Source: Trinickia fusca
GTDB taxonomy: Bacteria > Pseudomonadota > Gammaproteobacteria > Burkholderiales > Burkholderiaceae
Reading direction: 5' to 3'
Assembly: GCF_003628145.1 (NCBI RefSeq)
Contig: NZ_RBZV01000012.1
Span: 62,001-126,000, forward strand
DNA length: 64,000 nucleotides
Position numbers and translations under genes: made by a program. Below, piece by piece: positions 1 through 39,888 of this stretch (positions are counted from its first letter, which is position 1; every line of letters starts with the position of its first letter). The notes beneath the pieces were generated by a model that was not told the origin of the DNA, did not search any database, and saw only the letters and a list, made by a program, of their open reading frames with translations.

Positions 1-713
1 CGAATGCGCCGGAAGTGCGGAGCCAAATGCTGGCCTACCTGGACGAGAACCCGCACGAGGCGCAGGCGCTGATCTGGACGTTGCGGCTGGATGAAACGCC
101 GATTTATGCCATCGCCCCAGGGGGCGCCTACGCCAGCCAAGTGTACGAGCGGCTGCGCGCCTACCTTGCGGAACACGTCGCCGGTCGTGCCGAACTGGTG
201 TCGGTGCCGGGATACATCGCCGGGACGGTGCGCCTCATGTCTGGGCAAACCGTGCCGCTACTGGTGCCGGCTTTGCGCGGCATGTATTGCTGGTCCACCG
301 CTCAGGTGCTCGAGCAGGCAATGGGCGGGCGTCCCGCCGATGGCGAGCGCGCCGCGGAATACGACAGGCGGGCCAAGGCGCTGCGCAACTATCTGGACCG
401 CATCTACTATGCCCAACGCAATCTCGGCGACACGCCGGAGCACCGTGCGCTGAACTTCTCCGCCACGAATGCGTTTCAGGCGGCCGAGATCATGAGCATG
501 GCAGCCCACGGCGACGCGCAGGTGGAGCTCAGCACGATCAGTGTCAGCAAGAGCCCGATCTGTCGCCCTGATTCGGACTGCTATGACGTGCAGCTGTGCT
601 TCTTCAATCCCGATAACACCAACATGGCAGACCGCGTCTACCGCTTCACGGTCGACGTGAGCGATGTCATTCCGGTGAGCATTGGCCAGGTTCGCTCCTG
701 GTCGCAACGCTAA
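1..713 (+). CDS. PatG/PatA-type cyanobactin-maturation protein, C-terminal part (5' end outside window)
   Basis: The reading frame is already open at base 3, so only the C-terminal part (about 236 residues) is visible; a GTG at 15 is unlikely to be the true start. The sequence fits the PatG C-terminal domain as I remember it: ETPIYAIAPGGAYA near the start, VPGYIAGTVRLMSGQTVP, RGMYCW in the middle, then RALNFSATNAFQ, SPICRPDSDCYDV and the ending YRFTVDVSDVIPVSIG. In cyanobactin pathways this domain follows the subtilisin-like (S8) protease domain of PatA/PatG, which removes the leader and macrocyclises precursor peptides. The protease domain would lie left of the window and cannot be confirmed. 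Four small cysteine-rich ORFs follow on the same strand, which supports a peptide-maturation role. Family call fairly sure; substrate is inference. Confidence 0.75.
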   Translation, partial: NAPEVRSQMLAYLDENPHEAQALIWTLRLDETPIYAIAPGGAYASQVYERLRAYLAEHVAGRAELVSVPGYIAGTVRLMSGQTVPLLVPALRGMYCWSTAQVLEQAMGGRPADGERAAEYDRRAKALRNYLDRIYYAQRNLGDTPEHRALNFSATNAFQAAEIMSMAAHGDAQVELSTISVSKSPICRPDSDCYDVQLCFFNPDNTNMADRVYRFTVDVSDVIPVSIGQVRSWSQR

Positions 714-746
714 CTTGGTCCGTCATTCCCACCGAAGGAGCGAGCC

Positions 747-944
747 ATGACCGCCATCCTCCCCACGCGCTGTCGCCCCCATTCCCGCCCACCGGTGGAA
801 CGGGGACGTCAAGCCGCCCAGCCCTATGCCCGTGCCGGCATCGCGCCTAGCCAGAACCTGCAGCTCTTGTGTCAGGTTTGTTGCAAGAACGGCACCGCCG
901 CTGCTTGCTCGAACGCGATACCGGGATGCGTGTGCGACCTATGA
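747..944 (+). CDS. Putative cyanobactin-like precursor peptide 1 (Cys-rich, 65 aa)
   Basis: A 65-residue ORF beginning 33 bases after the PatG-like gene, with AAGGAG-type ribosome-binding site (GAAGGAGCGAGCC before ATG). Third codon positions are G/C rich, like real genes here. The N-terminal half is Arg/Pro-rich and nearly cysteine-free (one Cys at 9); GIAPS occupies residues 31-35; the C-terminal 30 residues hold six cysteines (42, 45, 46, 54, 61, 63). This leader-plus-core layout, and the GIAPS motif that recalls the GVEPS/GLEAS protease sites of PatE, suggest a RiPP precursor. No similarity to a named family is recognised. The stop codon overlaps a possible in-frame ATG (941) of the next gene. 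Confidence 0.55.
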   Translation: MTAILPTRCRPHSRPPVERGRQAAQPYARAGIAPSQNLQLLCQVCCKNGTAAACSNAIPGCVCDL

Positions 945-973
945 CCGCGAACTCGCCATGCACCGGAGAAATC

Positions 974-1207
974 ATGATGAAGACTCCTCCCCAACACGCC
1001 CCCGTGCTACGAGCGGCAGTCTTTCCTTCGGACTGCGGCATGACGAAGGGCATCGCCTGTGGTGCCGCCGTCGCCGCCGTGGGAGTCGGCTGCGCAGTCA
1101 GCGGCGGATTAGCGTGTCTGCCTGCGTTGCGTATCGTCGCTAATGCCGGCTGCTGCGACTGCCTCATGAACGGCACGCTCGTCGAGGCATGTAAGGCCAT
1201 CTTCTAG
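974..1207 (+). CDS. Putative cyanobactin-like precursor peptide 2 (Cys-rich, 77 aa)
   Basis: A 77-residue ORF. The start at 974 is preferred because GGAG sits five bases upstream; an in-frame ATG at 941 that overlaps the stop of peptide 1 (ATGA) would add 11 residues. Residues 15-19 read AVFPS and the first cysteine follows at once (21). Further cysteines lie at 29, 40, 48, 60, 61, 63 and 73. The middle is an Ala/Gly/Val-rich hydrophobic stretch (GAAVAAVGVG), like the glycine-rich cores of some bacteriocins. It is the second of four similar small ORFs after the PatG-like gene. Role as a modified peptide precursor is inferred from layout, not from homology. Confidence 0.55.
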   Translation: MMKTPPQHAPVLRAAVFPSDCGMTKGIACGAAVAAVGVGCAVSGGLACLPALRIVANAGCCDCLMNGTLVEACKAIF

Positions 1208-1226
1208 CCTCGTCGAAGGCGAGGCT
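1206..1226 (+). terminator. Hairpin between precursor-like ORFs 2 and 3
   Basis: AGCCTCG (1206-1212) pairs perfectly with CGAGGCT (1220-1226) around a 7-base loop, starting inside the TAG stop of peptide 2. There is no T-tract, so it is more likely an mRNA-stabilising or attenuating hairpin than a full terminator. Confidence 0.4.
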
Positions 1227-1282
1227 CGATTGCCCGGCGACGCCGTCTCCGGGATTTTCCACCCCAAGCAAGGAGCAAAACC

Positions 1283-1534
1283 ATGAACCTACCCCTGCAA
1301 AGCCGTCCGGTAGCCCGCCGCGAACGTCAGATGGGCATCCTCCCGCAGTCGGTGGCCTGTGTCCACGGCACCGTGGAAAACGGCGCCGTCTGCGTCAACC
1401 TGCCGATCATCGGCAAGAAGTGCATCGACGTCGGCCTGCATTTCGCCAACGGGCTGTCGGCATCGGTGTGCCTCGAGCGGATCTTCCCGCCGAAGGTCTG
1501 CGCCGAGGTGGCGGGCAGCCGCTTCTGCATCTGA
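1283..1534 (+). CDS. Putative cyanobactin-like precursor peptide 3 (Cys-rich, 83 aa)
   Basis: An 83-residue ORF with a strong AAGGAG (1270-1275) eight bases or so before ATG. The N-terminus is Arg-rich and cysteine-free (VARRERQM), followed by GILPQS at residues 18-23. Seven of the remaining 60 residues are cysteines: 26, 37, 47, 63, 73 and 82 plus conserved small/hydrophobic surroundings (NGAVCVNL, SASVCLER), with Cys-Ile as the last two residues. The GI-x-P-(Q)-S element matches peptides 1 and 4. No known family is recognised; proposed as a RiPP precursor on layout, motif and position. Confidence 0.55.
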   Translation: MNLPLQSRPVARRERQMGILPQSVACVHGTVENGAVCVNLPIIGKKCIDVGLHFANGLSASVCLERIFPPKVCAEVAGSRFCI

Positions 1535-1556
1535 GTCCACATAAGGAGCCAGTCTC

Positions 1557-1799
1557 ATGAGCGTCAATAACCAAGCCCCACCGGTGCGCCGCCATCGATT
1601 CGACCATGCGTTGAGGGCGCCGCTGCATGCTGGCGGCATCCAGCCCTCGGTATGCACGGCAGCCGACAACAACGCCGTCGGTCAGTGCTTCGACCAGCAC
1701 GGCGCCGTGCCGGGCCGCTTCAACTGCGCAGCCTGTTGCGCCTTGCGCGGTGCAACAGGCTGGCATAACCCGGCCAATGGTGTCGTCGTGGCCTGCTAA
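1557..1799 (+). CDS. Putative cyanobactin-like precursor peptide 4 (Cys-rich, 80 aa)
   Basis: An 80-residue ORF with ribosome-binding site AAGGAG (about 1541-1546), 22 bases after peptide 3. The N-terminal 26 residues are Arg/His/Pro-rich and lack cysteine (VRRHRFDHALRAPLHAG); GIQPS spans 27-31, then Val-Cys (33). Cysteines follow at 44, 57, 60, 61 and 80, the last being the final residue. Peptides 3 and 4 align around the motif: GI-x-P-(Q)-S-V-(A)-C. Proposed precursor peptide; the core length (about 49 residues) is far longer than classic cyanobactin cores. Confidence 0.55.
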   Translation: MSVNNQAPPVRRHRFDHALRAPLHAGGIQPSVCTAADNNAVGQCFDQHGAVPGRFNCAACCALRGATGWHNPANGVVVAC

Positions 1800-1887: not shown

Positions 1888-2301
1888 ATGGCTTCGCACT
1901 ACGAAATTCCTGGGTCGCGGTCGACGGACTCGACGCCCTCTGCTGGTTCAAGGCCATGCACGACGCGCGCTACGCGCAAGGGCGGGCGCCGCGCCCTGCC
2001 CGGCAGATGGTGCGGATACCTGGCCGCCCTATGGGCCGCATCGGCATTGGCACAGAGCGGCCAAGCGCCGCAGACCGACAGCGCCCAAGCGCCGCAACCC
2101 ACCAACAACTGGCTCGTTCAATCGATCGTGCAACGCGCGCAGGAGACGCCGGCCAGCGGCACGATGCCCGCGCAGACGAGCGTTGCCAGCAGCACCGGGG
2201 CGACCTGCACCTGCCCGCCGGCCACTACTTCACAGCCAGCAGCCCCTTCATCTGCGCCGCAATATCGGTCAGCGCCAACTGGCTATGCACCTGATCGATG
2301 A
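1888..2301 (+). pseudogene. Small secreted-type ORF, apparently frameshifted and truncated next to hrcT
   Basis: ATG at 1888 has a good ribosome-binding site (CGGAG seven bases upstream). The open frame runs to 2301, overlapping the 3' end of hrcT by 77 bases. GC-rich third positions favour the neighbouring frame from about 1900 to 1990 (giving SWVAVDGLDALCWFKAMHDA) and this frame from about 2000 to 2223 (CGYLAALWAASALAQSGQ, then TNNWLVQSIVQRAQE and a TCTCPPATT segment). After 2223 the coding signal switches abruptly to hrcT on the other strand. I read this as a gene disturbed by compensating frameshifts (or base-call errors) whose 3' end was lost at the junction with the secretion cluster. 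Function unknown. Confidence 0.35.
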
Positions 2302-3031
2302 CGACGCCGATCAGCAGCGCGACGAGCAACACCGACAGCGCCCCCTTGATCGCATGCGCGAGCGAATTCACGTCGATACGCTGAGCCGCCTTGCTGATGA
2401 TGCCGAAACCGAGATCGACCAGCACCAGGATCATCACGAGCGGCGCCATCAACTTGGCCGTCGTCTGCATCATCGTGTCGGTTTCGCGCATCACGAACGT
2501 CTCGAGCACGTTGCCGGGAATCGGTGTCACGCTCGCGAGCGGCCACCAGTGATACGACTCGTAGATCGCCGACAACAGCGTGCTCATACCGCCGAGCAAC
2601 CAGAACGCCGCCGTCACGCATTGCAGCAGCAGCGTCGACGTCAGCGATGTCTGCTGGCCGCTCATCGGATTCGTCAGCTGCACGTTGTTGTAACCGGCGA
2701 CGTCGTCGATGTATTGGCCGACGCTATCGGCCGTCCAGAAGATCGTCGAAGCCGCATAGCCGATCACCAGTCCGATCACCGCCTCCTTCACGCCGACCTC
2801 GAACAGAAAGAAGCCGTGCAGTTGCGGCAGCAGCGCCTGCTGCCCGTAGGCCACGACGCTGCTCCATAACAACGCGAGACCATTGCGTACCGGCCCGCGA
2901 ATCAGATTCTGGTCCGTCGGCGGCAGGACGATCATGACCGTCAGCAGACGCACGCTGCACAGGCCAAACAAGATCGCCATCTGCTCGAGCGACGCTGCCC
3001 ACTGCTCCAAGCCCAAATCGCCGCCGCTCAT
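2225..3031 (-). CDS. hrcT: Type III secretion export-apparatus protein SctT (HrcT)
   Basis: A 268-residue polytopic membrane protein of the SctT/HrcT/SpaR/FliR family, one of the inner-membrane export-gate proteins (SctRST). Hydrophobic helices are visible throughout, with the typical stretch LTNPMSGQQTSLTSTLLLQC in mid-protein and a C-terminal GALSVLLVALLIGVVID segment. Length matches the family. Its ATG overlaps the stop of hrpB7 by ATGA, and it is the last gene of the leftward hrpB1-to-hrcT operon, as in Ralstonia and Xanthomonas. In those genera hrcC usually follows; here a PatG/peptide locus follows instead. Confidence 0.95.
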   Translation of the reverse strand: MSGGDLGLEQWAASLEQMAILFGLCSVRLLTVMIVLPPTDQNLIRGPVRNGLALLWSSVVAYGQQALLPQLHGFFLFEVGVKEAVIGLVIGYAASTIFWTADSVGQYIDDVAGYNNVQLTNPMSGQQTSLTSTLLLQCVTAAFWLLGGMSTLLSAIYESYHWWPLASVTPIPGNVLETFVMRETDTMMQTTAKLMAPLVMILVLVDLGFGIISKAAQRIDVNSLAHAIKGALSVLLVALLIGVVIDQVHSQLALTDIAAQMKGLLAVK

Positions 3032-3591
3032 CGCCCGCCCCCCGTTGCCCCACTTGCCCGGCCCCGTGTGACCGCCCCCTCTCCCGCGGACGCGTCACGG
3101 CGCGCCCTCAGTGCCCGCGCGGCCATGCTCTCCTCGACTTCCTCGTCCTGCGCGTCTTCCACGCTTTGCGCGGCTGCCAGCTTGAGTTTCTCGATGCGTC
3201 GCGCGTAGACGTCGATCTGCCCATCGTTGCGCAGAATCTGCCGGCTCGTCTCGGCCATCTCCGTGTTGTGCTGTTGCTCGGCCTTGCGCGCTTTCGTCCA
3301 CTCTGCCTCGGCGGCTGTCTTGCGCTCGGCCACGACGGTGCGGTACTCGCTGCAATGCGTGAACTGGGGAATGCTCATCGGCGAACGGCTCGTGAGCATC
3401 GACGTCAAACGCTGGTCGTACTCGGCAAGCTGCGCAACCTCTTCGTCGAACATGACCTTCCTTTCCTGCTCGGCAGCCACCAACGCCGCATGCGCAGCGC
3501 GCTGCTTCGCGAGCGTCTCGCGCAATGTCTCGCCCAGACGCCGCTTGCGCTTGAGCATGACGCCGAACGCGGCAACTCGTCGATCCTTCAT
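3028..3591 (-). CDS. hrpB7: Type III secretion stalk protein HrpB7 (SctO-like)
   Basis: A 187-residue, charged, almost entirely helical protein with heptad-like coiled-coil sequence from about residue 15 to 150 (KRKRRLGETLRETLAKQ, ERKTAAEAEWTKARKAEQQ). It occupies the place of HrpB7, the SctO/FliJ-like stalk that links the ATPase ring to the export gate, between hrcN and hrcT. The C-terminal 30 residues are Arg/Gly-rich and probably disordered. Identification rests on position, size and coiled-coil character since SctO proteins are poorly conserved. It begins 11 bases after hrcN. Confidence 0.85.
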   Translation of the reverse strand: MKDRRVAAFGVMLKRKRRLGETLRETLAKQRAAHAALVAAEQERKVMFDEEVAQLAEYDQRLTSMLTSRSPMSIPQFTHCSEYRTVVAERKTAAEAEWTKARKAEQQHNTEMAETSRQILRNDGQIDVYARRIEKLKLAAAQSVEDAQDEEVEESMAARALRARRDASAGEGAVTRGRASGATGGGR

Positions 3592-3602
3592 CGCATCGAT
3601 CC

Positions 3603-4970
3603 TCAGCCACGCAAACGGGCGAGCGCTTCAAACGTATCGTCCGCTGAGACGAACTCGTCCGTGCGCTGGTTCAGAAACGCGCGGATCGCCTCGATCTTCG
3701 CGACCGCCTCGTCGGCCAGCGGATCGCTGCCTTCCTTGTATTCACCCACTTGCAGCAAGGTTTCGATTTCCCTGTACTTGGCCATCAAGCGCCGCACGTG
3801 GCCGGCACGGTCCATGTGCTCGCGCGACGTCACCTGCGGCATCACCCGCGACAGGCTGCCGAGCACATCGATGGCCGGATACTGGTTACGTGCGGCAATC
3901 TCGCGCGAAAGGATCATGTGGCCGTCGAGAATGCCGCGCACTTCCTCGGCGATCGGGTCGCCGCCCGATTCGTCTTCGGCCAGCACCGTATAGAGCGCCG
4001 TGATCGAGCCGTGCTCGGACAAACCCGCGCGTTCGAGCAACTTCGGCAGCTCGGCGAAGATCGAAGGCGGAAAGCCACGCCGAGTCGGCGGTTCGCCCGC
4101 TGCAAGGCCGATCTCGCGCTGTGCACGGGCAAAGCGCGTCAGCGAGTCCATCATCAGCAACACGCTCATGCCGCGATCGCGAAAGTACTCGGAGACGGCC
4201 GTCGCCACATAAGCCGCCTTTGCGCGTTCGATCGACGAGCGGTCCGACGTCGCGCAGACCACGACCGAACGCGCCATACCGTCGGGTCCGAGAATCTGTT
4301 CGACGAACTCGCGCACTTCGCGGCCGCGCTCGCCGATCAGTGCGATCACATTGATGTCGCAGCGCGCGCCGCGTGCGAACATGCCCATCAGCGTACTCTT
4401 GCCGGCACCGGCCGGCGCGAAGATGCCCATACGCTGTCCTTCGCCGAGCGTCATCAGGCCGTCGACGATGCGGACCCCTGTCGGCAGGTTCTTCTCGAGC
4501 AGCGGCCGGCTCATCGGGCTCGGCGGATCGGCGAAGATCGGCCGGTACTCGGTGCAGGCCAGCGGACCGCGTTCGTCGATCGGCAGGCCGAGGCTATCGA
4601 TGACACGCCCGAGCAAGCCATCGCCGACCGGCACCGACAGCGGCCGCTTCAAGCCGATCACTTGCGTCTCGCGCGAGATGTCGGCGAGGCGGCCGAACGG
4701 CGAGAGGATCGCAATGTCACGCGAGAAGCCGACCACCTCCGCGTTTTGCATCAGCTCGCCCGTCGGCGTGCGCAGCTCGCACAGCTCGCCGAGCCGCACG
4801 TCGAGCCCCGTTACGCGCACGAGCGTGCCGATCACTTCGAGCACCTTGCCGCGCGTTTCCACCGGACGTTGCGCACGCAGTTCGCGTTCGATCGACGCGG
4901 TGAAGCCTTGCAGTTCATCGAGTGCGGACGGCCAGGCGTCCATTTGCGTTTGCATCGCCGTCTCCGTCAT
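3603..4970 (-). CDS. hrcN: Type III secretion ATPase SctN (HrcN)
   Basis: A 455-residue hexameric F1-type ATPase that unfolds and releases chaperone-bound substrates at the base of the injectisome. Walker A APAGAGKST lies at about 185-193 (Lys191); the Walker B region VLLMMDSLTRFA is at about 270-281 with Asp275; the signature SGGDPIAEEVRGILDGH also fits. Length is normal. The start overlaps the sctL stop by ATGA, and hrpB7 follows by 11 bases, so it is cotranscribed with the leftward hrp operon. Confidence 0.97.
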   Translation of the reverse strand: MTETAMQTQMDAWPSALDELQGFTASIERELRAQRPVETRGKVLEVIGTLVRVTGLDVRLGELCELRTPTGELMQNAEVVGFSRDIAILSPFGRLADISRETQVIGLKRPLSVPVGDGLLGRVIDSLGLPIDERGPLACTEYRPIFADPPSPMSRPLLEKNLPTGVRIVDGLMTLGEGQRMGIFAPAGAGKSTLMGMFARGARCDINVIALIGERGREVREFVEQILGPDGMARSVVVCATSDRSSIERAKAAYVATAVSEYFRDRGMSVLLMMDSLTRFARAQREIGLAAGEPPTRRGFPPSIFAELPKLLERAGLSEHGSITALYTVLAEDESGGDPIAEEVRGILDGHMILSREIAARNQYPAIDVLGSLSRVMPQVTSREHMDRAGHVRRLMAKYREIETLLQVGEYKEGSDPLADEAVAKIEAIRAFLNQRTDEFVSADDTFEALARLRG

Positions 4971-5926
4971 GGCGTGTTCTCTTGCAGATCGAGTGCGAGA
5001 TCGAGCTCGCCTTCCTGCACGTCCTCTTCGTTGTCGGATAACAGATCAGCGTCGACGTCGACGTACGCAGCATCGACAGCATCGTCGTCGACAAAATCGG
5101 CATCAGCGGCATCGACGACATCCGCTGCTTCGGTCTCGTCATCGGCGAATGCAGACGGGTCGAGGTCGTGGCCGTCCTCTGTGTTCGGCTCCGCCTGCTC
5201 TACCTCGCGGGCCAGCGCACGCTCCACTGCTGCACGCATCGCGGCAAGCTGCGTCGACAAGCTCGCATCAACCATGCCCAGATCCGATTCGCAGATGCAG
5301 GCGCCGACGCCAAGCTCGCGATCGGCCATGACGCTGACCGGCACCGCACGCCCACGCTCGCGCCACTCTGTGGCAAAGCGAGCAAATTCGCGCGAGGCCG
5401 CTTCGTAATCGTCGGGATGCACGCGCACCTTTAGATAGCTGCATCCGTCGGCAATGCGGTCGAGCGCGGCACTGGAGCGTGCGAACAAAGCGCTGGTATC
5501 TTCGCTGCGCACGATCTGCTCGACGGCGACGACGACGAGCTCTGCAAGCCGCTCACGCAACAGCGTCTGCATGTCGCGCTGCTCGGCACCATGCTCGGCG
5601 ACGCGCGCATACCAATCGGCAAGCGCCTGTGCCTTGCCGTCGTCATAGCCACGCCGCTCGGCACTCTCGTACTCCTCCTGCGCCTGTTCGAGCAATGCGA
5701 GCGCCTCTTCGTCTGCGCGTGCGGTGATGTCCTCGGCACGCTGGCGCGCATCCGCGAGGATCGCTTCGTATTCGCGCCGACACACGTCCTGCGCGTCGTC
5801 GAGTGCGACGACGGTCGCGAACGCCTCGCGGCGCAAGATGCCCGAGTCCTCTTCGACGCCGATGCCGCCGAGCGTCTCGGCGTCTCTGCTCAATTCGACG
5901 TTGGGATGTCGCAACCAAATGACCAT
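4967..5926 (-). CDS. hrpB5: Type III secretion stator protein SctL (HrpB5) with long acidic tail
   Basis: A 319-residue SctL/HrpB5/FliH-type ATPase regulator. The start MVIWLRHP is typical of HrpB5. A helical region with EEYESAERRGYDDGKAQAL around residues 85-105 and a C-terminal domain (VEQIVRSEDTSALF, VRVHPDDYEAA) match the family. After about residue 240 an unusual tail follows, rich in Asp/Glu (ADADFVDDDAVDAAYVDVD); usual HrpB5 proteins end near 230-240 residues. It overlaps hrpB4 by 37 bases and hrcN by 4. Function: stator linking the ATPase to the cytoplasmic sorting platform (SctQ/SctK). Confidence 0.9.
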   Translation of the reverse strand: MVIWLRHPNVELSRDAETLGGIGVEEDSGILRREAFATVVALDDAQDVCRREYEAILADARQRAEDITARADEEALALLEQAQEEYESAERRGYDDGKAQALADWYARVAEHGAEQRDMQTLLRERLAELVVVAVEQIVRSEDTSALFARSSAALDRIADGCSYLKVRVHPDDYEAASREFARFATEWRERGRAVPVSVMADRELGVGACICESDLGMVDASLSTQLAAMRAAVERALAREVEQAEPNTEDGHDLDPSAFADDETEAADVVDAADADFVDDDAVDAAYVDVDADLLSDNEEDVQEGELDLALDLQENTP

Positions 5927-6657
5927 GCGGGCTCCGGAAACAGTTCAGGCAATCGGCTCAATACATGCGCGCTGCCGTCGGCATCGACGGCGCGCTCGCA
6001 TCGTGCGAGCCAAATCGGCACGTCTAGCTCGCGTGGCAACGCACGTCGCAGCCACTGCGCTGCCGCGTCGTTGGCGAGTACGCCGTCACGCTCGAGCAGA
6101 CAAAAACCCTCCCATTCGAGAGCGTCGTCGTCGAGCGCGTCGAGCCCAGGCATGCCGATCGCGCGGCTCAACGTGGCTACATCGGGTGCACCGGGCAACT
6201 GGGCGAGCCACCTCAAGAGCGGCGTTGCCTGCTCCCCAAGCAACGCGGCAAGGCGCGAACGGCGCATCAGGTCGACGATGCGCCTGACTTCACCACGCCG
6301 AAACACGAGTGCGCGCAAGCGCAGCAAGCGTCGTTGCCAATCGATCGGCAACGTCGCGAACGCCAGCACATTACGCGCCCAGGCATCTCGCGACGCACAC
6401 GTTTGCCATGTTGCATACGTATCGAACGCATCGACGCTCGGCAGTTCGAGCAGTTGCACGAGCGCGTTCGCGCACGCATCGTCGGCGTCACGCAACGATT
6501 CGCCGACCGTACCGTCGAGCAGCCACGCCGGCAGCCACGACGGGTGCATCCAGTCGAGGCAAGCCCGGCGATTGCCGTCGAGTTGCTCGAGCCAGGCCGC
6601 TACGCGCGCGGCGGGACTTTGCATCGTCATCTCGGCCTGCATCGCGCCTCCCGGCAA
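5890..6657 (-). CDS. hrpB4: Type III secretion protein HrpB4 (SctK-like)
   Basis: A 255-residue protein placed between hrcJ and hrpB5, the position of HrpB4, the probable SctK adaptor of the sorting platform in Hrp2 systems. Trp- and Leu-rich helices (AARVAAWLEQLDGNRRACLD, WQRRLLRLRALVFRR) and the C-terminal LPRELDVPIWLARCERAV resemble HrpB4. A start at 6642 (MQAEMTM) is possible. The 3' end overlaps sctL by 37 bases, implying translational coupling. Confidence 0.85.
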   Translation of the reverse strand: MPGGAMQAEMTMQSPAARVAAWLEQLDGNRRACLDWMHPSWLPAWLLDGTVGESLRDADDACANALVQLLELPSVDAFDTYATWQTCASRDAWARNVLAFATLPIDWQRRLLRLRALVFRRGEVRRIVDLMRRSRLAALLGEQATPLLRWLAQLPGAPDVATLSRAIGMPGLDALDDDALEWEGFCLLERDGVLANDAAAQWLRRALPRELDVPIWLARCERAVDADGSAHVLSRLPELFPEPAWSFGCDIPTSN

Positions 6658-6673
6658 AACGTGTCAACCCGCC

Positions 6674-7465
6674 TCACGCGTCGGCTGCCGCAGGCGCGCC
6701 GTCCTGGCCGCCGCGCGACTTCAGCTTGGCGAGCCACTGGCCAGCCTTGCCGTCGAGCAGCGCCTGACGCTTGAGCAGCACGAGCAACGCCGCGCCACAC
6801 ATGAAAAACGCGGTCAGCGCGACGCCTACCAGCCATCCGCCGCCTCGCGGCCCCGGCGGCTGCGCCAACTCGATCGGATCGGCGGGCACGGATGCCACGC
6901 TGACCTGGTCGTAAGTCAGTCCTTCGACGCTATGCATGACGAGATTCTTGATCTGCGGGGTAAGCGTCTCGAGATTCGCGTTGGGCCGGTACTTGATGAA
7001 CACCGACGCGGACGAAGGCTTGACGTTCGGCGCGAGCGGGTCGTTGTTCGGCAGCACGATGTGCACGCGCGCGACGACGACACCGTCGATCTTCGACAGC
7101 GTGTCCGAGAGCTCCTGGGACACGCCGTAGATGAAGCGCACCCGTTCCTCGGTAGGCGTCGAGACGAGGCCATCCTTCTTGAACAACGCGCCGAGGTCGT
7201 CGTACTTGTGCTCCGGCAGGCCACGCGAACGCAGCACCTGCATCGCGCGAACCATCTGCTTGTCGTCGACCTCGACCGACCAGGTCTTGCCACCGTCGGC
7301 GGTGGTCTTCTGTGAATCGACGCCATCCTCGAGCAACGCTACATCGATCTCGTTCGCATCACGCTCGGACAGGTTGCCGTACAGCTCCTTGTGGCAACCC
7401 GTAAGCAGCAGCACGAGCGTCATGCAAGCCAGCGAAGCAGCCCGCCTGCGCCAAGCTCTCATCAT
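6674..7465 (-). CDS. hrcJ: Type III secretion inner MS-ring lipoprotein SctJ (HrcJ)
   Basis: A 263-residue lipoprotein of the SctJ/YscJ/FliF family. Signal peptide ends in the lipobox LLTGC (Cys24). The mature part begins [20 protein letters not shown], the family hallmark, followed by the second ring domain ([29 protein letters not shown]) and a C-terminal transmembrane segment ([21 protein letters not shown]) with a cytoplasmic tail. The start is set by ATGA overlap with the hrpB2 stop; two ATG codons are adjacent (7465 and 7462). Forms the inner-membrane ring with SctD. Confidence 0.96.
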
Positions 7466-7872
7466 TGATTCCTCATCAAAGTACCGATGGCGTCCTTCGT
7501 CGACGTGACGACGGCCAGCTTGACCTGCATATCGCACTCCAAGCCCGACGCTTCGAGCATCACCTGCGTCTGCGCGGCGAAGCTCTGCTGCATCGACATA
7601 TGCGGCATCGAATGCATCATGAACATCGCGTCGTTGCTGACCGCCCGCGTCATCACATCCTGGTCGTGCACGACCTTCGAGATCATCGTCTCGGTATCCA
7701 TGCCGTTGCTTTGCGGCGCCGCGGCACGGCCATGCTCGTAAAGCGCTTGAAACTTGTCGGCGAGCTGCTGCGTCTCGGGGGCGGACGCGGTCGAGTGTGC
7801 ACTCGTTCCCGTCCCCACCACCTCCTGTGCGAACATCTGTTGCAGATGCGCCGACATCCATGCTGAGTCCAT
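7462..7872 (-). CDS. hrpB2: Type III secretion inner-rod protein HrpB2 (SctI-like)
   Basis: A 136-residue protein starting at 7872, chosen because a strong GGGGGAGG lies eight bases upstream; an upstream in-frame start would add five residues. HrpB2 is the periplasmic inner-rod/early substrate of Hrp2 systems (about 130 residues). The C-terminal helical part ([20 protein letters not shown] and [19 protein letters not shown]) is the type expected for SctI proteins, which polymerise through the C-terminus. Second gene of the PIP-controlled leftward operon. Confidence 0.88.
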
Positions 7873-7919
7873 ATGGACCTCCCCCAAACGCTAACGGCTC
7901 ATCGCGAGCCGCATACAGA

Positions 7920-8498
7920 TCAAAGACGCATGTACTGGCCGCCCATCAGCGACGGATCGATCATGCTGGGCACCGGCTGCGCCTGCGCCGCTTGTTCGGC
8001 TTCGTGGCTTTGGCGCTCGGCGACGAGCGTCTTCAGCGATTCGGGAAACTCGAATTCGCCGGTCGCCTTGGCCTTTTCGATCGCACGATTGAGTTCGTTG
8101 CGAGCGACGACGGTGCGCAAGAGGCGAACCGCATCGTCCGAGGTCTCGCTCTGCATCATTTGATTCGCTTCGACTTGCCAGTCGCCGTCGCCGTTTTCGC
8201 TCATGCAGTAGATCTGCATCGCACGGCTGTTCGGCAGGCAATGACCCTTGTCGGCGAGCTCGCGGAACACCTGCGCGGCGCCGATAAAGTCGCCTCGCAC
8301 GATCTGCAGGCGAGCGCCGATCATCTCGAATTCCGGCGCCGGTTCGCAGAGCAGACGCACTGCCCCGATCAGTTGCTCGATGTCGTCGACGGCGATACGG
8401 CTACGCGGAAACTTGTCGATCAACGCCAGGTTGATGATTTCGACGAGACCGCGCAGGATTTCATCGCCGCACTTCAGATAGTCTTTCAATTCGCTCAT
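7920..8498 (-). CDS. hrpB1: Type III secretion protein HrpB1/HrpK
   Basis: A 192-residue HrpB1/HrpK-family protein, reported as a periplasmic peptidoglycan-interacting T3SS protein in Xanthomonas. It is TPR-like in composition ([39 protein letters not shown]). The start [11 protein letters not shown] at 8498 is preceded by GGGGGAA. It is first in the leftward operon, 46 bases downstream of the -10 element of a perfect PIP box. Confidence 0.92.
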
Positions 8499-8543
8499 GT
8501 CGGTTCCCCCAAGAGGCGTGACCGCACATCGGGCCACATCGCC

Positions 8544-35164: not shown

Positions 35165-36985
35165 TCAAGGTTCGACGATGCGCGGCGTCAACAGGAACAG
35201 GCGTTCCATGTGACTGTCGTTGTTGCTCGCCGTCTTGAACAGATTGCCGATCACCGGGATCTTCGACAGCCCCGGCACGCCTGCCACGCCGTTTTTCCGA
35301 TTGTCGACGCGATAGCCGGCCACGAGCAGCGCCTGGCCTTGCTTGATGAACGCCGACGTGTTGATGTCCGAGCTCGTGATGACGGGCAGATTACCGACGG
35401 TCTGGTCGGTTACCTCGCCGTCTTCGATCGACACGTCGAGCTTGATCTGCGTCGAGCCGTTCTCTTCCACGATCATCGGCAGCACACGCAGCGACACGCC
35501 CGTCGACACCGAATACAAATCGGCCGACGTGTAGCCCGACACCGGCACGAAGAAGCGCGTCTTGTTCGCCATCACCGCTTCCAGGTTGTTCAGCGTCGTG
35601 ACCTTCGGGCTGGAGTCGATCTTGGCGCGGTTCGTCTGTGTGAGCGCGTCGATGCGCGTCATCAGGTAGCGGCCCGCGTCGCCGAGCACGGCCGCCATCG
35701 ACAAGCCCGTCGGCGACACGGGCACCGGCGTTTGCAGCGTGCCGTTCAGCGACGTCGTGCCGAATGTCTGCGTGAGCGTGCCGTTATAGGTGTTCTGCGG
35801 GAGCACGCCGCCGCCGGTCTGGATGTCGACGTGACTGTTGTGCGCGGTCCAGTCGACGCCGAGCTGTTGCAGCGCGTTGTCGTCGACTTCGATAATGTGC
35901 GCCTCGATCTCGATGAGCTGGGGCTTCACATCGAGCCGCTCGAGCAGATCGGGGTACTGATACATGCGATCGGGCAGATCGCGTACGAGCACCGAGTTCG
36001 TGCGCGGGTCCGCCTGAATGACGGGCAGCGAGTCGTCCTTCGAGCCGCTCGCTTGATCGTTGTCTTGTGCGGGCGCGTTGTTCGCAGCCTGCGCGATGCC
36101 CTGGCTCGGCTGGCCCGACAAGCCGCCGAGCGGCCCGGTGGCCTGCGGCAGCGGTGGCAGCGGCGGCGTGCCGGGCTTGCTGTTGTAGCCGCCTGAGGCC
36201 GAGCCGGCCACATCGCTCATGGACTTGGACCTCATGACACCGGCAGCAGCAGCCGCACCATTGGCGGCGCCCCCCATACTCTGCGAAGGCGGGTGATACA
36301 TGCTATTGAGCAGCGAGGCGACGCCCGCGAGCGTCACCTGCTGGCCGTCGACGTCGACCGTGCGATCCACGGCCCACGCGTGACGCAGCGGGTACACGCG
36401 GATCTCGGTGCCCGAACGGCGCGACGCGTTCTTGTCGATGCGATCGGCCACGCTCGTCACCATCTGCACGTAGCTGGGCGGGCCATTCACGATGACGGCG
36501 CCCTGCGAATCGTCGTAGATCAGCGGGAAGCGGTTGTCGGCCACGCCGAGCTGCGTCAACGTGCGACGCAGTTGTTCGGCCGACGCGCTGTCGAGCTTGA
36601 GCAGCGAGTTCTTCATCTCGGCCGGCATCACGATGTCGAGCACCTGGCCGTCGTAATACCAGACGAAGCCGAACGTCGAGGCCAGCGTGTCGAGAAAGCG
36701 CTGCGGCGGCATGTTGAAGCGACCGCTCACGGTACCCGCCACCTCGCCGCCGATGTTGGCGGGAATGCCCTGGCTGGCGGCGAAATCGCGCAGCACGTCC
36801 TTGACGTCCTTGCCCTCGGCCGAGTACGCGATGCTGCTCGTTTTCCAGTGCACCGCCGTCGCGAACGACGCAGGCGCGGCGCACATGAGCGCGACGACGA
36901 GCGCCGCGAGCCACGCGCTGCGCGCATGGAACGGCGAGCGCAATCGATGGCGGCGGAATGATTCGTCTTGACGATGGTTACGCAC
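35165..36985 (-). CDS. hrcC: Type III secretion outer-membrane secretin SctC (HrcC)
   Basis: A 606-residue SctC/HrcC secretin with GTG start (GGAG seven bases upstream). Signal peptide to about residue 44 (ALMCAAPASFATA). N0 and N1 domains (FGFVWYYDGQVLDI, GPPSYVQMVTSVADRIDK), a Gly/Ser/Pro-rich insert about 210-300, N3 domain (LPVIQADPRTNSVLVRDLPD) and the secretin core (ASVLRV-like region VSLRVLPMIVEENGS, GVPGLSKIPVIGNLFKT, LFLLTPRIVEP). It is separated from the other hrp genes by 17 kb and starts only 31 bases after pilV, so it could be read through from the pilus operon. No PIP box seen upstream. Confidence 0.92.
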   Translation of the reverse strand: MRNHRQDESFRRHRLRSPFHARSAWLAALVVALMCAAPASFATAVHWKTSSIAYSAEGKDVKDVLRDFAASQGIPANIGGEVAGTVSGRFNMPPQRFLDTLASTFGFVWYYDGQVLDIVMPAEMKNSLLKLDSASAEQLRRTLTQLGVADNRFPLIYDDSQGAVIVNGPPSYVQMVTSVADRIDKNASRRSGTEIRVYPLRHAWAVDRTVDVDGQQVTLAGVASLLNSMYHPPSQSMGGAANGAAAAAGVMRSKSMSDVAGSASGGYNSKPGTPPLPPLPQATGPLGGLSGQPSQGIAQAANNAPAQDNDQASGSKDDSLPVIQADPRTNSVLVRDLPDRMYQYPDLLERLDVKPQLIEIEAHIIEVDDNALQQLGVDWTAHNSHVDIQTGGGVLPQNTYNGTLTQTFGTTSLNGTLQTPVPVSPTGLSMAAVLGDAGRYLMTRIDALTQTNRAKIDSSPKVTTLNNLEAVMANKTRFFVPVSGYTSADLYSVSTGVSLRVLPMIVEENGSTQIKLDVSIEDGEVTDQTVGNLPVITSSDINTSAFIKQGQALLVAGYRVDNRKNGVAGVPGLSKIPVIGNLFKTASNNDSHMERLFLLTPRIVEP

Positions 36986-37016
36986 GGCTGTAACTCCGAA
37001 TAGCGCGGGTGAGCGG

Positions 37017-38759
37017 TTAATAGAAAGAGTTGATCGTCCAGCCGGCCGCGACCGGCGTGGTTTGGATGAGGTCGCCCTTTGGACCGCAGTAATTGGTCTC
37101 GTAGGGCGTCTTCAAGCCGTTGTAGTTGGCCCAGTCCGTCTGGATCACGATGTTGTAGCCGCCCTGGTTGGCCGGCGCGGCCTGGGTGACGTTCTCGTTG
37201 ATGCCAGCCGAGTCGTCGGTGATCGTCGGCGACTGCGACTGACTGTTGCCGATGACGTGGCCGGTGTCGTTGTCCGTGATCGTCACGTACAGCGCGACTT
37301 GACCCATGTTGTGGAAGTTGTTCTGGCCGGAGCGGCAGATCTCGTCGTACATGTGCGCCCACGCGGCCACCGAAATGATGCCGGGCTTCGCGAGCATGAC
37401 CTTGCGCGTCACCTTATAGCTGTAGTTGCCTGCAGCCGCGTCGTAGCTTGGGTTGTCGCCATTCGGGTAGGGACCCGAGTATCGGTACGAGCATTTGTCG
37501 TAGTCATGGGCGCCTGGATTGCCCATGATGATGACGCAGTCCGCGTCACTGCCGTACGGATTGATCTGCGACTGGTTCTCCCATTTGCCGTTCTGACACG
37601 ACAGCACTTCGCCGGCCGCATTCATCGAAACCTTCCCGGTCGCGGAGGTTACCTTCGAATCGTCCGCGCACGACGTGCCGATCACGTTTTGCTGCGTCAG
37701 ATCGAGCCGGCTTGCGACGAGCAACGAATCGCCGATGACGAGGTTGTTGTTGTTGTCGAGGATCAGCGAGTGCCATGCCGTGCCCGTGTATTCCCAGGGT
37801 ATGCCCGTGTCGAGCGCGAGCGCCACGTCGCCTTGCTGCGGATTGCTCAGCGACGAAAGATTGCTGGAGGAAGCCACGGGATCACGCCAGTACGACGAGC
37901 CCGCGAACTGCCACGTGCCACTGCTTTGGCACGAGAGCACACGACCATTCGCGTCGGACGTAATCTTGCCTACCGAGTTCGGAAGACCCGGCTTGCAGTC
38001 CTCATCGCTCGATCCTTCGACGTGCGCGACCGAATCGTGCAAATAGATCGGCGCATGCATCGTGTTCGCATCGGCATAGCCGGGCACGCGGACGCGGTAG
38101 AGGAAGTCGGCGTTCTGATTGCCGGGGCCCGTCGTGAACACCTCGCTGACGAGATGGCCGACGCCCGTCGCCTGACCACTGCAATTCGCACCCGATGTAT
38201 CGGGCGCGGCATTGATCCACGCGCCGTACGCGCCGTATGCCGCACCGTTCGCATTGGCCGCACCGGCACCGTTCTTCGACGGAATCGAGCCACCGCCCTG
38301 CCCGGCGTTCGCGGCGATGTAGCCGAGCTCGAGATCGGGAATCGTCTGCCCGCCTTCGGTCACGAGCAGCGCATCGAGTCCGCCCGTCGCCTGTGCAGTG
38401 ACAAGCAGGCAAGGCGATTGGCCATAAGCGTTCGCGCCTTGAATGCTCGCCGGCAAATAGCTGGCAAGCTGGATTGCGCCGACGGCGGCGCGCAACGGCA
38501 CGACGACAGGCCGGGCTGCCGTCGCGGCCGCCTGCGAGGCGAGCGTCGCGTAGTTGGCCTGCACTAGCTGCATGGCCGCGTTCGCGAGCTGTGCTTGGTA
38601 CTGCGCGGCTTGCTGATCGCGGAGGTTCTTCATCGACGTGTTGATCAGCATCGACAAGCCCGCGAACATCAGCGCGGCGATGAACAATGCCGCCAATGCT
38701 TCGACGAGTGTGATGCCGCGTTGACGCGAACGAGCGGCGAAGGAGCGCGAGCGATGCAT
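37017..38759 (-). CDS. pilV: Type IVb minor prepilin/tip adhesin PilV-like
   Basis: A 580-residue prepilin. Basic leader then the cleavage site QRG|ITLVEALAALFIAALMF, with Glu near position 5 of the mature protein. The N-terminal 250 residues resemble the constant region of R64/PilV tip adhesins, followed by a variable-looking C-terminal region with CQSSGTWQFAGSSYWRDP and CQNGKWENQ repeats, i.e. two related Cys-Gln-x-G-x-W modules. No shufflon repeats or rci recombinase are visible, so one fixed tip is expected. Likely host-recognition adhesin. Confidence 0.85.
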   Translation of the reverse strand: MHRSRSFAARSRQRGITLVEALAALFIAALMFAGLSMLINTSMKNLRDQQAAQYQAQLANAAMQLVQANYATLASQAAATAARPVVVPLRAAVGAIQLASYLPASIQGANAYGQSPCLLVTAQATGGLDALLVTEGGQTIPDLELGYIAANAGQGGGSIPSKNGAGAANANGAAYGAYGAWINAAPDTSGANCSGQATGVGHLVSEVFTTGPGNQNADFLYRVRVPGYADANTMHAPIYLHDSVAHVEGSSDEDCKPGLPNSVGKITSDANGRVLSCQSSGTWQFAGSSYWRDPVASSSNLSSLSNPQQGDVALALDTGIPWEYTGTAWHSLILDNNNNLVIGDSLLVASRLDLTQQNVIGTSCADDSKVTSATGKVSMNAAGEVLSCQNGKWENQSQINPYGSDADCVIIMGNPGAHDYDKCSYRYSGPYPNGDNPSYDAAAGNYSYKVTRKVMLAKPGIISVAAWAHMYDEICRSGQNNFHNMGQVALYVTITDNDTGHVIGNSQSQSPTITDDSAGINENVTQAAPANQGGYNIVIQTDWANYNGLKTPYETNYCGPKGDLIQTTPVAAGWTINSFY

Positions 38760-38774
38760 GGACGCGTTTCTCCC

Positions 38775-39242
38775 TTAGCCCGGATAGACTTGAGCGAGCC
38801 ACACCGGCATCCCGTTCGGGATCGATGCGGCGATGGCGGCAGGCAGCGGGATCGCCACCGACGGATTGCCGGGCGGCACTTCGTTGCCGTTCTGTGCGCT
38901 GCCCGCGAACACCGAGCCTTGCGCAAGGCGTGCGATGTCGACGACGAGCTCGGGCGAGACGGGGCTGGTCGGGTAGACGATGACGGTGTTGCCCTGTACG
39001 TAGTTCTGCCACAACGCGTTCGGTGCATAGTGCGCCGAGCTCGGCAGCTGGTTCGCGCTCACGCGGCCCTGAAACGACGGATGCGCGAGCACGTAGTCGA
39101 TGACCGACTGACGGTACTCGGCCATGTTCAGCGCGAGCGACTGCGTCGAGGCGCGATAGGCGCTCATCATCTGCTCAGCGCCGAACGTCTCGTAGCCGGC
39201 GATCAGCATCGCCATCACCGCGAAGATCGCGAACACGTACAT
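38775..39242 (-). CDS. pilM: Type IVb pilus biogenesis protein PilM (R64-type)
   Basis: A 155-residue protein with one N-terminal membrane helix (MYVFAIFAVMAMLIAGYETF) and a periplasmic part (SLALNMAEYRQSVIDYVLAH, WQNYVQGNTVIVYPTS) fitting R64 PilM. In R64, pilM precedes pilN; here it sits between pilS and pilV. Start at 39242 just after pilS (47 bases). Confidence 0.75.
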   Translation of the reverse strand: MYVFAIFAVMAMLIAGYETFGAEQMMSAYRASTQSLALNMAEYRQSVIDYVLAHPSFQGRVSANQLPSSAHYAPNALWQNYVQGNTVIVYPTSPVSPELVVDIARLAQGSVFAGSAQNGNEVPPGNPSVAIPLPAAIAASIPNGMPVWLAQVYPG

Positions 39243-39289
39243 GAAAAGTCTCCGGGGATGCGGGGCCGAATGGCCCCGCGTTTGCGCGT

Positions 39290-39826
39290 TTAGTTCGACG
39301 TCCAGATGATCGTATTCGTCGCGGCACACGCCTTCTTCGCCTGAACAGGCGTAATTGGCGGCTGAATAGCCGCGTTACCGCCGACTGCAACGCCCAGCCA
39401 GCCCTCCGTCGTCGACGTCAGCGAGTTGATGCAGACGTCTTCCGGAACGGCGGTGTAGGTGATGGCGAACTGGCCAGCCGTGGTAGCGTTGCCGGCCACA
39501 GTCACTGAGCCGCCCCAGGCGTTAGTCACGTCGCCCTTGGTGTCGACGGTCAACGATTGCGGAAAGCCCTTCGCGCTCGCAAGCGCAGTCGTGAAATCGG
39601 CTCCACCGTAGTTACCTTGCGTCGTCATAAACAGCTTGCGCGATGCCGTCTGCTCGGCCGACAGCTCCGAATTGAGTTGATTCGAATTCGCGCTACTGAA
39701 CGCACTATTGAGCAGCGCAATCGCCCCGATCACAACGATCGCGGCGATACCCAGATAAGCGATACCCTCAAGCAGCGAAGCACCCTTTTGCAAACGGCGA
39801 AGCGGTTGATGTTGCCGAGTTTTCAT
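39290..39826 (-). CDS. pilS: Type IVb major pilin PilS
   Basis: A 178-residue prepilin. Leader of about 20 residues ending LQKG, mature N-terminus ASLLEGIAYLGIAAIVVIGA with Glu5. Two C-terminal cysteines (VCINSL and KACAAT) are placed for the pilin disulphide. Size and operon place match PilS of R64/Salmonella Typhi. The start MKTRQH at 39826 is preferred to 39841. Confidence 0.9.
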   Translation of the reverse strand: MKTRQHQPLRRLQKGASLLEGIAYLGIAAIVVIGAIALLNSAFSSANSNQLNSELSAEQTASRKLFMTTQGNYGGADFTTALASAKGFPQSLTVDTKGDVTNAWGGSVTVAGNATTAGQFAITYTAVPEDVCINSLTSTTEGWLGVAVGGNAAIQPPITPVQAKKACAATNTIIWTSN

Positions 39827-39888
39827 GATTTCGTCCCCCAATTAACGAATAGATCCAGCGTTGAATTCCAGCGTTTGATGACCAGCGT

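Follow-up and report, generated by a model that had tools for sequence, protein, structure and literature searches.

The left end of a 64,000-nucleotide stretch of the Trinickia fusca genome, hereafter the window (contig NZ_RBZV01000012.1, positions 62,001 to 126,000; G000:C4:62001-126000, where G000 is this genome), holds the end of a PatA/PatG-family protease gene and, after it on the same strand, four small open reading frames (ORFs) for cysteine-rich peptides. This locus (L002) is read here, with a probability of about 0.8, as a stand-alone PatA-type system in which the protease would remove a leader and release linear, disulfide-rich peptides. In the proposed mechanism, one subtilisin-family protease with a cyanobactin C-terminal domain would be made together with the four precursors, presumably from a common transcript. 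Each precursor would present a PatE-related N-terminal leader, followed in three of them by a recognition site of the PatA-like kind; by analogy with PatA biochemistry, the protease would cut at this GxxPS-like site and free the N-terminus of the core. The expected product is a linear peptide of about 30-60 residues, exported in some way, with its 6-8 cysteines probably paired as disulfides, and no heterocyclase, macrocyclase or other enzyme would act as a constant partner. Domains, leader homology, a recurring gene unit and even cysteine counts are the parts of this explanation that can be read from the sequences themselves, and the recurring protease-plus-peptides unit probably represents a little-known way to make disulfide-bonded peptides.

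The protease gene and four small downstream reading frames

The window opens with the C-terminal part of the protease (positions 1-713, + strand; open frame 3-713), whose 236 residues comprise PatG_D and PatG_C domains and match PatG_C with an E-value of 4.9e-39 and the PatA/PatG protease model TIGR03895 with 6.7e-89, in line with the PatG-like C-terminal domain recognized by an initial annotation of this DNA. The full protease has 672 residues (L002:8695-10713) and its gene starts at G000:C4:60695, 1,306 bases left of the window; the S8 domain that the initial annotation had suggested seeking there does lie just left of the window. Profile searches of the full protein, likewise suggested, match Peptidase_S8 (E-value 2.2e-29), PatG_D (3.1e-12) and PatG_C (3.3e-38), and its TIGR03895 score of 622.8 bits exceeds the curated cut-off of 421.05, which places it in the family. 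The catalytic triad (Asp49, His88, Ser252) is intact and falls in columns that are invariant across five aligned proteases. The protease is the single match of its kind in the 6.1-Mb genome, both by protein and by PatG_C search, with no second PatA/PatG protease.

The four ORFs follow on the + strand, with gaps of 33, 29, 75 and 22 bases from the protease through ORF4, and AGGAG/GGAG-type ribosome sites stand 5-8 bases 5' of each ATG (by reading, without statistics), so that the four short genes with ribosome sites first described are all present. ORF1 (747-944) encodes a 65-residue precursor with a degenerate leader (PPVER), a cleavage-like GIAPS and a 6-cysteine core. The 77-residue product of ORF2 (974-1207, with a second ATG at 977 and contained in a longer GTG frame, 869-1207) combines the leader KTPPQHAPVLR with VFPS ahead of the first cysteine and an 8-cysteine core, and that of ORF3 (1283-1534, 83 residues) the leader NLPLQSRPVAR with GILPQS and a 6-cysteine core. 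ORF4 (1557-1799) encodes 80 residues with a degenerate leader (NNQAPPVRR), GIQPS at residues 27-31 and again a 6-cysteine core. Total cysteine numbers are 7, 8, 6 and 6, and those past the leader 6, 8, 6 and 6; the six to eight cysteines originally described beyond a cysteine-poor N-terminus are thus borne out in number, with the qualification that one cysteine of ORF1 lies within its leader. By guanine-plus-cytosine content (GC) at the three codon positions, ORF3 is clearly coding-like, ORF4 fairly so, and ORF1 and ORF2 weakly. No curated family model (Pfam, NCBIfam) matches any of the four peptides above its cut-off, the one weak match being that of the ORF3 N-terminus to the PatB/AcyB/McaB model (E-value 0.16, far under the cut-off). 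Some relatives of the peptides give weak, leader-only matches to cyanobactin precursor models (TIGR04446 for L004, 0.044, and L047, 0.003; TIGR03678 for L036, 0.042), and no scanned peptide, from the window or from a relative, exceeded the cut-off of a curated family.

Recurrence of the peptides beside related proteases

Each window peptide was searched against 11,101 ORFs of 25-220 residues in 84 loci, consisting of the 80 genome loci nearest this protease among the matches listed, two plasmid loci (L004, L026), a locus from the same genus (L029, genome G006) and the T. fusca locus itself. A homologue of ORF1 was found in Nostoc favosum (L104, E-value 4.5e-10), and homologues of ORF2 in L048 (1.1e-7), L036 (3.5e-6), L045 (2.0e-4) and L055 (0.0061), of ORF3 in L105 (1.1e-6) and L107 (9.3e-5), and of ORF4 in L062 (4.4e-19), L087 (4.2e-18), L079 (1.5e-12), L085 (4.8e-11) and L096 (1.0e-7). 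All of them lie downstream of a PatA/PatG-family protease, on its strand, in distant bacteria; weaker matches (0.03-0.65), including one on the opposite strand (ORF1 to L045, 0.034), were taken as noise. In the alignments, the leader and many of the cysteines are conserved, and the sequences mostly differ elsewhere. Because each has a homologue downstream of another PatA/PatG-family protease, the four ORFs are, judged by these comparisons, not chance frames. The ORF4 homologue is under purifying selection in Janthinobacterium, where two species differ by 13 synonymous and 4 nonsynonymous codon changes (nonsynonymous rate dN 0.02, synonymous rate dS 0.30); a second peptide of these two species is less constrained, with 5 synonymous and 9 nonsynonymous changes.

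Peptide profiles give a similar association. With at most 16 candidates scored in each genome, profile A5, built without the T. fusca locus, matched one of 397 genomes, G742, at a distance of 87 bp from the protease's PatG_C stretch, and it missed the six other genomes in the draw that have PatG_C. The ORF4 profile (A3) matched 4 of 10 genomes, once each and always at the protease locus. Genome mining for small ORFs beside protease homologues, as first recommended, therefore does find cysteine-rich ORFs adjoining the relatives, and neither of the two observations that the initial annotation had named as fatal to its proposal, a missing upstream protease domain and relatives devoid of such ORFs, was made. 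With a protease, leaders and recurring peptides in hand, its picture of a proteobacterial maturation system with several long, cysteine-rich cores is upheld.

A PatE-related leader and a predicted PatA-like cleavage site

Within 3 kb downstream of the proteases, 68 of 1332 same-strand ORFs, from 38 of the 84 loci, carry a strict leader motif (M, up to ten residues, then P-x-Q-xx-P-[VIA]-x-R), against 2 of 1456 ORFs on the opposite strand there; among upstream ORFs it occurs in 12/1070 and 6/1238 on the two strands. None of 26,640 shuffled ORFs carries it, nor does any of 705 ORFs around 18 S8 proteases that match the T. fusca protease in the S8 part only. The unchanged motif was then applied to eight held-out loci chosen by PatG_C alone. 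One is from G742, found among 398 genomes drawn from the phylum; the other seven belong to six genomes found among 397 drawn from the order of G742. Here 8 of 146 ORFs on the same strand and none of 118 on the opposite strand carry the motif, and five of the eight loci contain it. The remaining three comprise two loci with leader-like, cysteine-rich ORFs by a looser rule (L129, L130) and a PatG_C-only fragment without an S8 domain (L131). A profile of 52 stand-alone leaders aligned with 20 LAELSEE-bearing classic precursors at the LPxQxxPVxR element (hhalign 93.5%, score 26.7), the best of 40 column-shuffled controls reaching 22.2% and a score of 14.9. On this comparison, the leaders are related to the cyanobactin PatE leader (LPxQxxPVxR); within the window the element is clear in ORF2 and ORF3 and degenerate in ORF1 and ORF4. 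In three of the held-out loci (L125, L126, L127), the leader-like ORFs share the stretch NPCL[VI]QL[TK]TF.

PatA-like enzymes cleave after G(L/V)E(A/P)S, according to the accessible part of one report (PMC10885120). The window peptides contain GIAPS (ORF1), GILPQ (ORF3) and GIQPS (ORF4), and VFPS in ORF2, none being an exact G(L/V)E(A/P)S; position 3 of this kind of site, which resembles recognition sequence II (RS-II), is mostly not Glu. The looser leader rule, which also demands at least four cysteines after the leader, selects 81 distinct ORFs, distributed over 40 of 45 stand-alone loci and all seven held-out loci that have a complete or partial S8 domain; the opposite strand yields 10 such ORFs. 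A G[VILMF]x[PA][SQ] site lies at most 40 residues past the leader in 30 of the 81, compared with 1.73 in shuffles, and in 21 of these 30 the next cysteine comes 0-4 residues on.

Even cysteine numbers and a predicted ordered core

Past the leader, the cysteine count is even in 75 of the 81 ORFs (binomial p 1.5e-16, a value overstated because families share ancestry). Grouping the ORFs by core gives 36 clusters, 33 of which have an even modal cysteine number (p 1e-7); the cysteine number varies from family to family and is mostly 4, 6, 8 or 10. Two of the six odd-count ORFs are plainly spurious frames (T. fusca locus +113, L087 +1246), as is one even-count ORF (L126 +1965), and the count of another even one (L050 +280) is unreliable since the pattern matched inside the core. 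In an AlphaFold2 model of ORF4 from six sequences, residues 1-30 have a predicted local distance difference test score (pLDDT) below 50 and the blocks from 41 to 80 average 84-90; the modelled core consists of two hairpins around a short helix, and order would begin where the predicted site (27-31) ends. No solved structure was found to match this predicted core. The ORF2 model has a like boundary at low confidence (residues 7-18 below 50, helices from residue 22) and is too weak to use. Together, parity and the ORF4 model suggest disulfides in the cores, because disulfides would force even parity and heterocycles, lanthionines or isolated metal sites would not.

Were the cysteines instead to bind metal, the peptides would resemble metallothioneins or metallophores and would merely be released by the protease. 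CxxC and CC motifs in several cores fit this idea, as does the lack of an oxidase or disulfide enzyme among the most common neighbour families (25 of 166 listed), but a cysteine number that varies by family and yet is even in 75/81 ORFs, and the compact mini-domain predicted for ORF4, speak against it, and it is judged unlikely.

A second kind of peptide, with a CxGCxxR...LN-like motif, is found near several proteases (L053, L105, L107 and L029 of G006), on the opposite strand in L105. In a Planctomycetia bin (L080:8087-8644, + strand, just after the protease), a leader and GVTPQ stand ahead of a phospholipase A2-like domain (PF00068, E-value 5e-5, under the cut-off), and from this locus the cores may be thought to include small enzyme-like domains.

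Tailoring enzymes in the loci and genomes

Classic cyanobactin markers (PatD-type YcaO, PatB and LAELSEE) were sought in the 84 loci, of which 34 are classic-like and 50 are not. The former figure was corrected by hand from 35, the T. fusca locus having been taken out of the classic-like group when its PatB tag proved to be a spurious 29-residue frame. A pattern search finds cysteine-rich leader ORFs in 32 of the 50 non-classic and 5 of the 34 classic-like loci. When the remaining 18 non-classic loci were inspected by eye, 14 had leader-like ORFs, many of them variant (e.g. KIPNQSxG); those without are L083, L084, L094 (20 bases downstream covered) and L097. The T. fusca locus itself contains no PatB or PatC (tblastn) and no LAELSEE (recognition sequence I, RS-I), and reading of the four ORFs finds no AYDG/SYDD (RS-III).

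No YcaO or other known tailoring gene, which the initial annotation had suggested looking for left of the window's first base, was seen there. The upstream gene, on the opposite strand, encodes a penicillin-amidase-type protein, and farther upstream lie genes for a transglycosylase, an unmatched protein, a DUF4915 protein and an adenosine phosphosulfate (APS) kinase, none of which has a known role in peptide tailoring. The genome's single YcaO match lies on contig C34 (G000:C34:441541-443739; L134:5542-7740) rather than C4. The protein, read as a SagB-YcaO fusion, is followed by a 349-residue ORF and has on its other side a 715-residue ORF on the opposite strand; no obvious leader-type precursor lies near it.

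This gene could in principle serve a genuine cyanobactin or thiazole/oxazole-modified microcin (TOMM) pathway, in which a distantly encoded cyclodehydratase would convert cysteines to azol(in)es and leave the protease just to finish the product, and YcaO is present in 8 of 17 genomes with a PatG_C system. It is absent from the other nine, which include the complete Acidobacteriaceae genome G430 (home of the ORF4 homologue L087) and the one-contig G834, with some metagenome bins counted among the nine. The precursors lack LAELSEE, even cysteine counts are not expected of heterocycles, and tblastn returned no PatD-like match in the 23 loci nearest this protease (L031-L053; at most about 6 kb on each side). 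Such a pathway is accordingly regarded as quite improbable for T. fusca, and, as far as gene content can tell, heterocyclisation cannot be a general step of the system, because nine of the 17 genomes bearing it, complete G430 among them, have no YcaO.

Nor was a conserved tailoring enzyme or exporter found around 42 stand-alone loci, where no Pfam family occurs in more than 4 of 124 neighbour proteins (124 of 150 candidates, called as longest ORFs and kept after short overlapping frames and some very long proteins were left out; the first 25 of 166 families were listed). The sole repeated and plausible neighbour is a leucine-carboxyl-methyltransferase-like (LCM) protein in L043, L044 and L046, with four members in all.

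Relation to cyanobactin maturation

The closest solved structures to the S8 part of the protease are PatA proteases (4h6v, 278.7 bits; also 3zxx), the PatG macrocyclase scoring 170.5 bits. Membership in the PatA/PatG family thus stands, but the initial label of a PatG-type maturation protein needs correction: judged from these matches, the S8 domain is nearer PatA than PatG, and no PatG-type macrocyclase lies beside it. TIGR03895 includes PatG, and the C-terminal part matches the PatG domain of unknown function (DUF; 4uvq, 187.9 bits), so head-to-tail macrocyclisation by the protease itself has to be weighed. The PatA-like S8 domain tells against it, as do cores that reach the C-terminus without an AYDG-like site. 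PatG carries a two-helix insert, as stated in the accessible text of a 2015 review (PMC4663559), but Asp and His are 39 residues apart in the T. fusca protease, 20-39 in 37 parsed proteases out of 50 stand-alone ones and 35 in the PatA of L028, and this spacing would leave no room for a long insert between them. Macrocyclisation therefore appears less probable still than a hidden cyclodehydratase pathway. Least credible, and practically dismissed, is the idea that the small ORFs are chance frames beside a PatA-like gene: short ORFs are common (11,101 in the 84 loci) and the codon-position GC of ORF1 and ORF2 is weakly coding-like, but same-place homologues in distant bacteria, purifying selection on the ORF4 homologue and the strand bias in held-out loci contradict it.

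Compared with PatA, the patellamide leader protease, the T. fusca enzyme shares the S8 domain, the C-terminal DUF and a putative G-Phi-x-P-S type of site before the core, but it stands alone, its substrates have long, mostly cysteine-rich cores of about 30-60 residues, and position 3 of the site is mostly not Glu. The precursors share with PatE the N-terminal LPxQxxPVxR-like element, but have one long core rather than short cassettes and neither LAELSEE nor a C-terminal AYDG/SYDD. With pat-type clusters as a whole, the locus has in common a related protease and leader, and classic clusters may also hold several precursor genes (PMC4663559, as far as its accessible text goes); it differs in having one protease, no PatB or PatC, and relatives under the labels of ten phyla. 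According to the same part of that review, active cyanobactin clusters always encode both A and G proteases, and had as of 2015 been identified only in cyanobacteria. Among the features of such a cluster, the T. fusca locus has the A protease and the PatE leader element and lacks the G protease, PatB, PatC, RS-I, RS-III and a local YcaO. The original description of a cyanobactin-like locus accordingly holds for the leader and the cleavage logic, but the locus is, on its gene content, not a cyanobactin, because it fails the two-protease cluster definition; it is like the first half of cyanobactin maturation. Classic-like markers (PatD/YcaO plus PatB) were also seen in Alphaproteobacteria, in L082 (Bradyrhizobium sp. 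DOA9), L091 (a Roseobacter metagenome-assembled genome) and L101 (Sphingomonas sp. ERG5), L082 and L101 also having LAELSEE precursors, which contrasts with the cyanobacteria-only statement of 2015 as it appears in the accessible text (PMC4663559).

A different point of comparison is offered by the bacteriocins and other disulfide-rich peptides of ribosomal origin. In these, generally, a leader is removed by a protease and the cysteine count is even, as in the window peptides. The difference is that PatA-type proteases are discussed only for cyanobactins in the accessible part of one source (PMC10885120), and that no exporter was seen in the T. fusca locus. A literature search by title and start of abstract, with subscription papers and preprints largely outside its range, found no description of a stand-alone PatA with cysteine-rich precursors, which is no proof of novelty.

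Linkers of PatA-family proteases often have a cleavage-site-like stretch beside a CxC, placed close to PatG_D in the stand-alone enzymes and towards the end of S8 in classic PatA; residues 391-400 of the T. fusca linker contain PSTCGCGGG. The stretch beside CxC is a possible self-processing site. CxC as a trait of the stand-alone clade was considered and dropped: it separates the groups (39/40 against 2/35) only in the last 60 residues before PatG_D, a count that left out rows in which the anchor was not found, and over the whole linker the figures are 39/50 and 32/35, so that seemingly only its position differs.

Weighing of the proposed reading and its implications

Several points weigh against leader removal by a stand-alone PatA-type protease with release of disulfide-rich peptides. 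Cleavage, product and expression are all predicted from sequence. The 80 genome loci were picked for nearness to this protease as the best of a longer list, and the strict leader motif was written after the loci had been seen, so that only the held-out test is independent; two of the four window leaders (ORF1 and ORF4) are degenerate. An RS-II-like pattern is present in only three of the four window ORFs, and of the 81 peptides collected 51 lack it. The parity count treats members of one family as independent, which they are not, and some loci have cysteine-poor peptides (L040, L042 and L092; L043, L044, L046 and L047 in part). Finally, no exporter was found conserved that would carry reduced cysteine-rich peptides to an oxidising place. 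In the cyanobacterial L043, L044, L046 and L047, which are stand-alone loci, several of the cysteine-poor peptides carry GVEAS or GIEAS.

We lean, with the odds somewhat in its favour, towards a wider claim, namely a widespread and unnamed ribosomal-peptide class in which one PatA-type protease receives, by way of a PatE-related leader, small cores of unrelated kinds, among them cysteine-rich mini-domains and, in the one Planctomycetia bin, even a phospholipase A2-like domain, with disulfides taking the place of modification by enzymes. On this view, cyanobactins would be a specialised offshoot of a wider leader-protease system, the heterocyclase and macrocyclase having been added to it or lost from it. 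PatA/PatG proteases are currently taken as cyanobactin markers; if the reading proposed here is correct, a TIGR03895 match outside, and often inside, cyanobacteria would mark another type of product with easily missed short genes. It would also offer many new disulfide-rich peptide scaffolds that share one leader, a protease for that leader accepting a very broad range of cores, and a test bed for the role of the PatA/PatG C-terminal domain, the function of which a 2014 structure paper left unknown in its accessible text (PMC4259220), and it would bear on the origin of cyanobactins. It is a guess that the peptides are set free as a small mixture of several components with antimicrobial or signalling activity, and a multi-peptide antimicrobial in particular is a doubtful guess.

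Distribution and phylogeny

Stand-alone proteases occur under ten phylum labels (Cyanobacteriota, Pseudomonadota, Acidobacteriota, Planctomycetota, Bacteroidota, Calditrichota, Chloroflexota, Nitrospinota, Bacillota and Nitrososphaerota), several of the entries being metagenome bins with possibly wrong labels. The locus is thus present in a Burkholderiaceae-like genome, as initially noted, but is no local oddity, as it recurs under these labels, cyanobacteria included. Searches for PatG_C were positive in 2 of 11 genomes from the genus, in 1 of 399 from the order (T. fusca itself), in 2 of 398 from the phylum (T. fusca and G742) and in 7 of 397 from the order of G742, G742 included. The protease is 45% identical to its same-genus homologue and 49% identical, over 96% of its length, to a homologue on a Gloeocapsa plasmid. 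This patchy distribution suggests horizontal transfer of the locus.

In an IQ-TREE phylogeny, 44 stand-alone entries fall in one fork (support 91), and a nested fork of 40 (support 99) contains the T. fusca protease. FastTree with six held-out entries added supports the grouping at just 31%, and for this reason it is claimed only that the stand-alone proteases cluster in these trees, not that a single origin is proven. Among 50,697 phage records, no carrier was matched, and in viral contigs the matches, at 12 loci, all end before PatG_D. Among plasmids, three records, all cyanobacterial, match over 80% or more of the query; the matches in Streptomyces plasmids are weaker and split into pieces, and searches of plasmids with the peptides found nothing.

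Other features of the window

Just 3' of ORF4, a perfect 9-bp hairpin (1814-1836, + strand; z -4.09, with 0 of 200 shuffles as good) is a possible transcript end, to judge from the sequence; it has no T-run, and a terminator scan found no T-run terminator after ORF4. The next + strand ORF (1888-2301) was left out of the locus because its GC pattern is unlike that of coding ORFs and it has no family match (Pfam, NCBIfam). Genes at 2225-8537 on the - strand, which we take from their translations to be a type III secretion cluster, converge on the peptide genes and are probably unrelated to them. Farther into the window, pieces of 35313-42505 are about 77% identical to part of a Burkholderia stagnalis plasmid, where the annotation lists PilV/type IV pilus genes and SctC.

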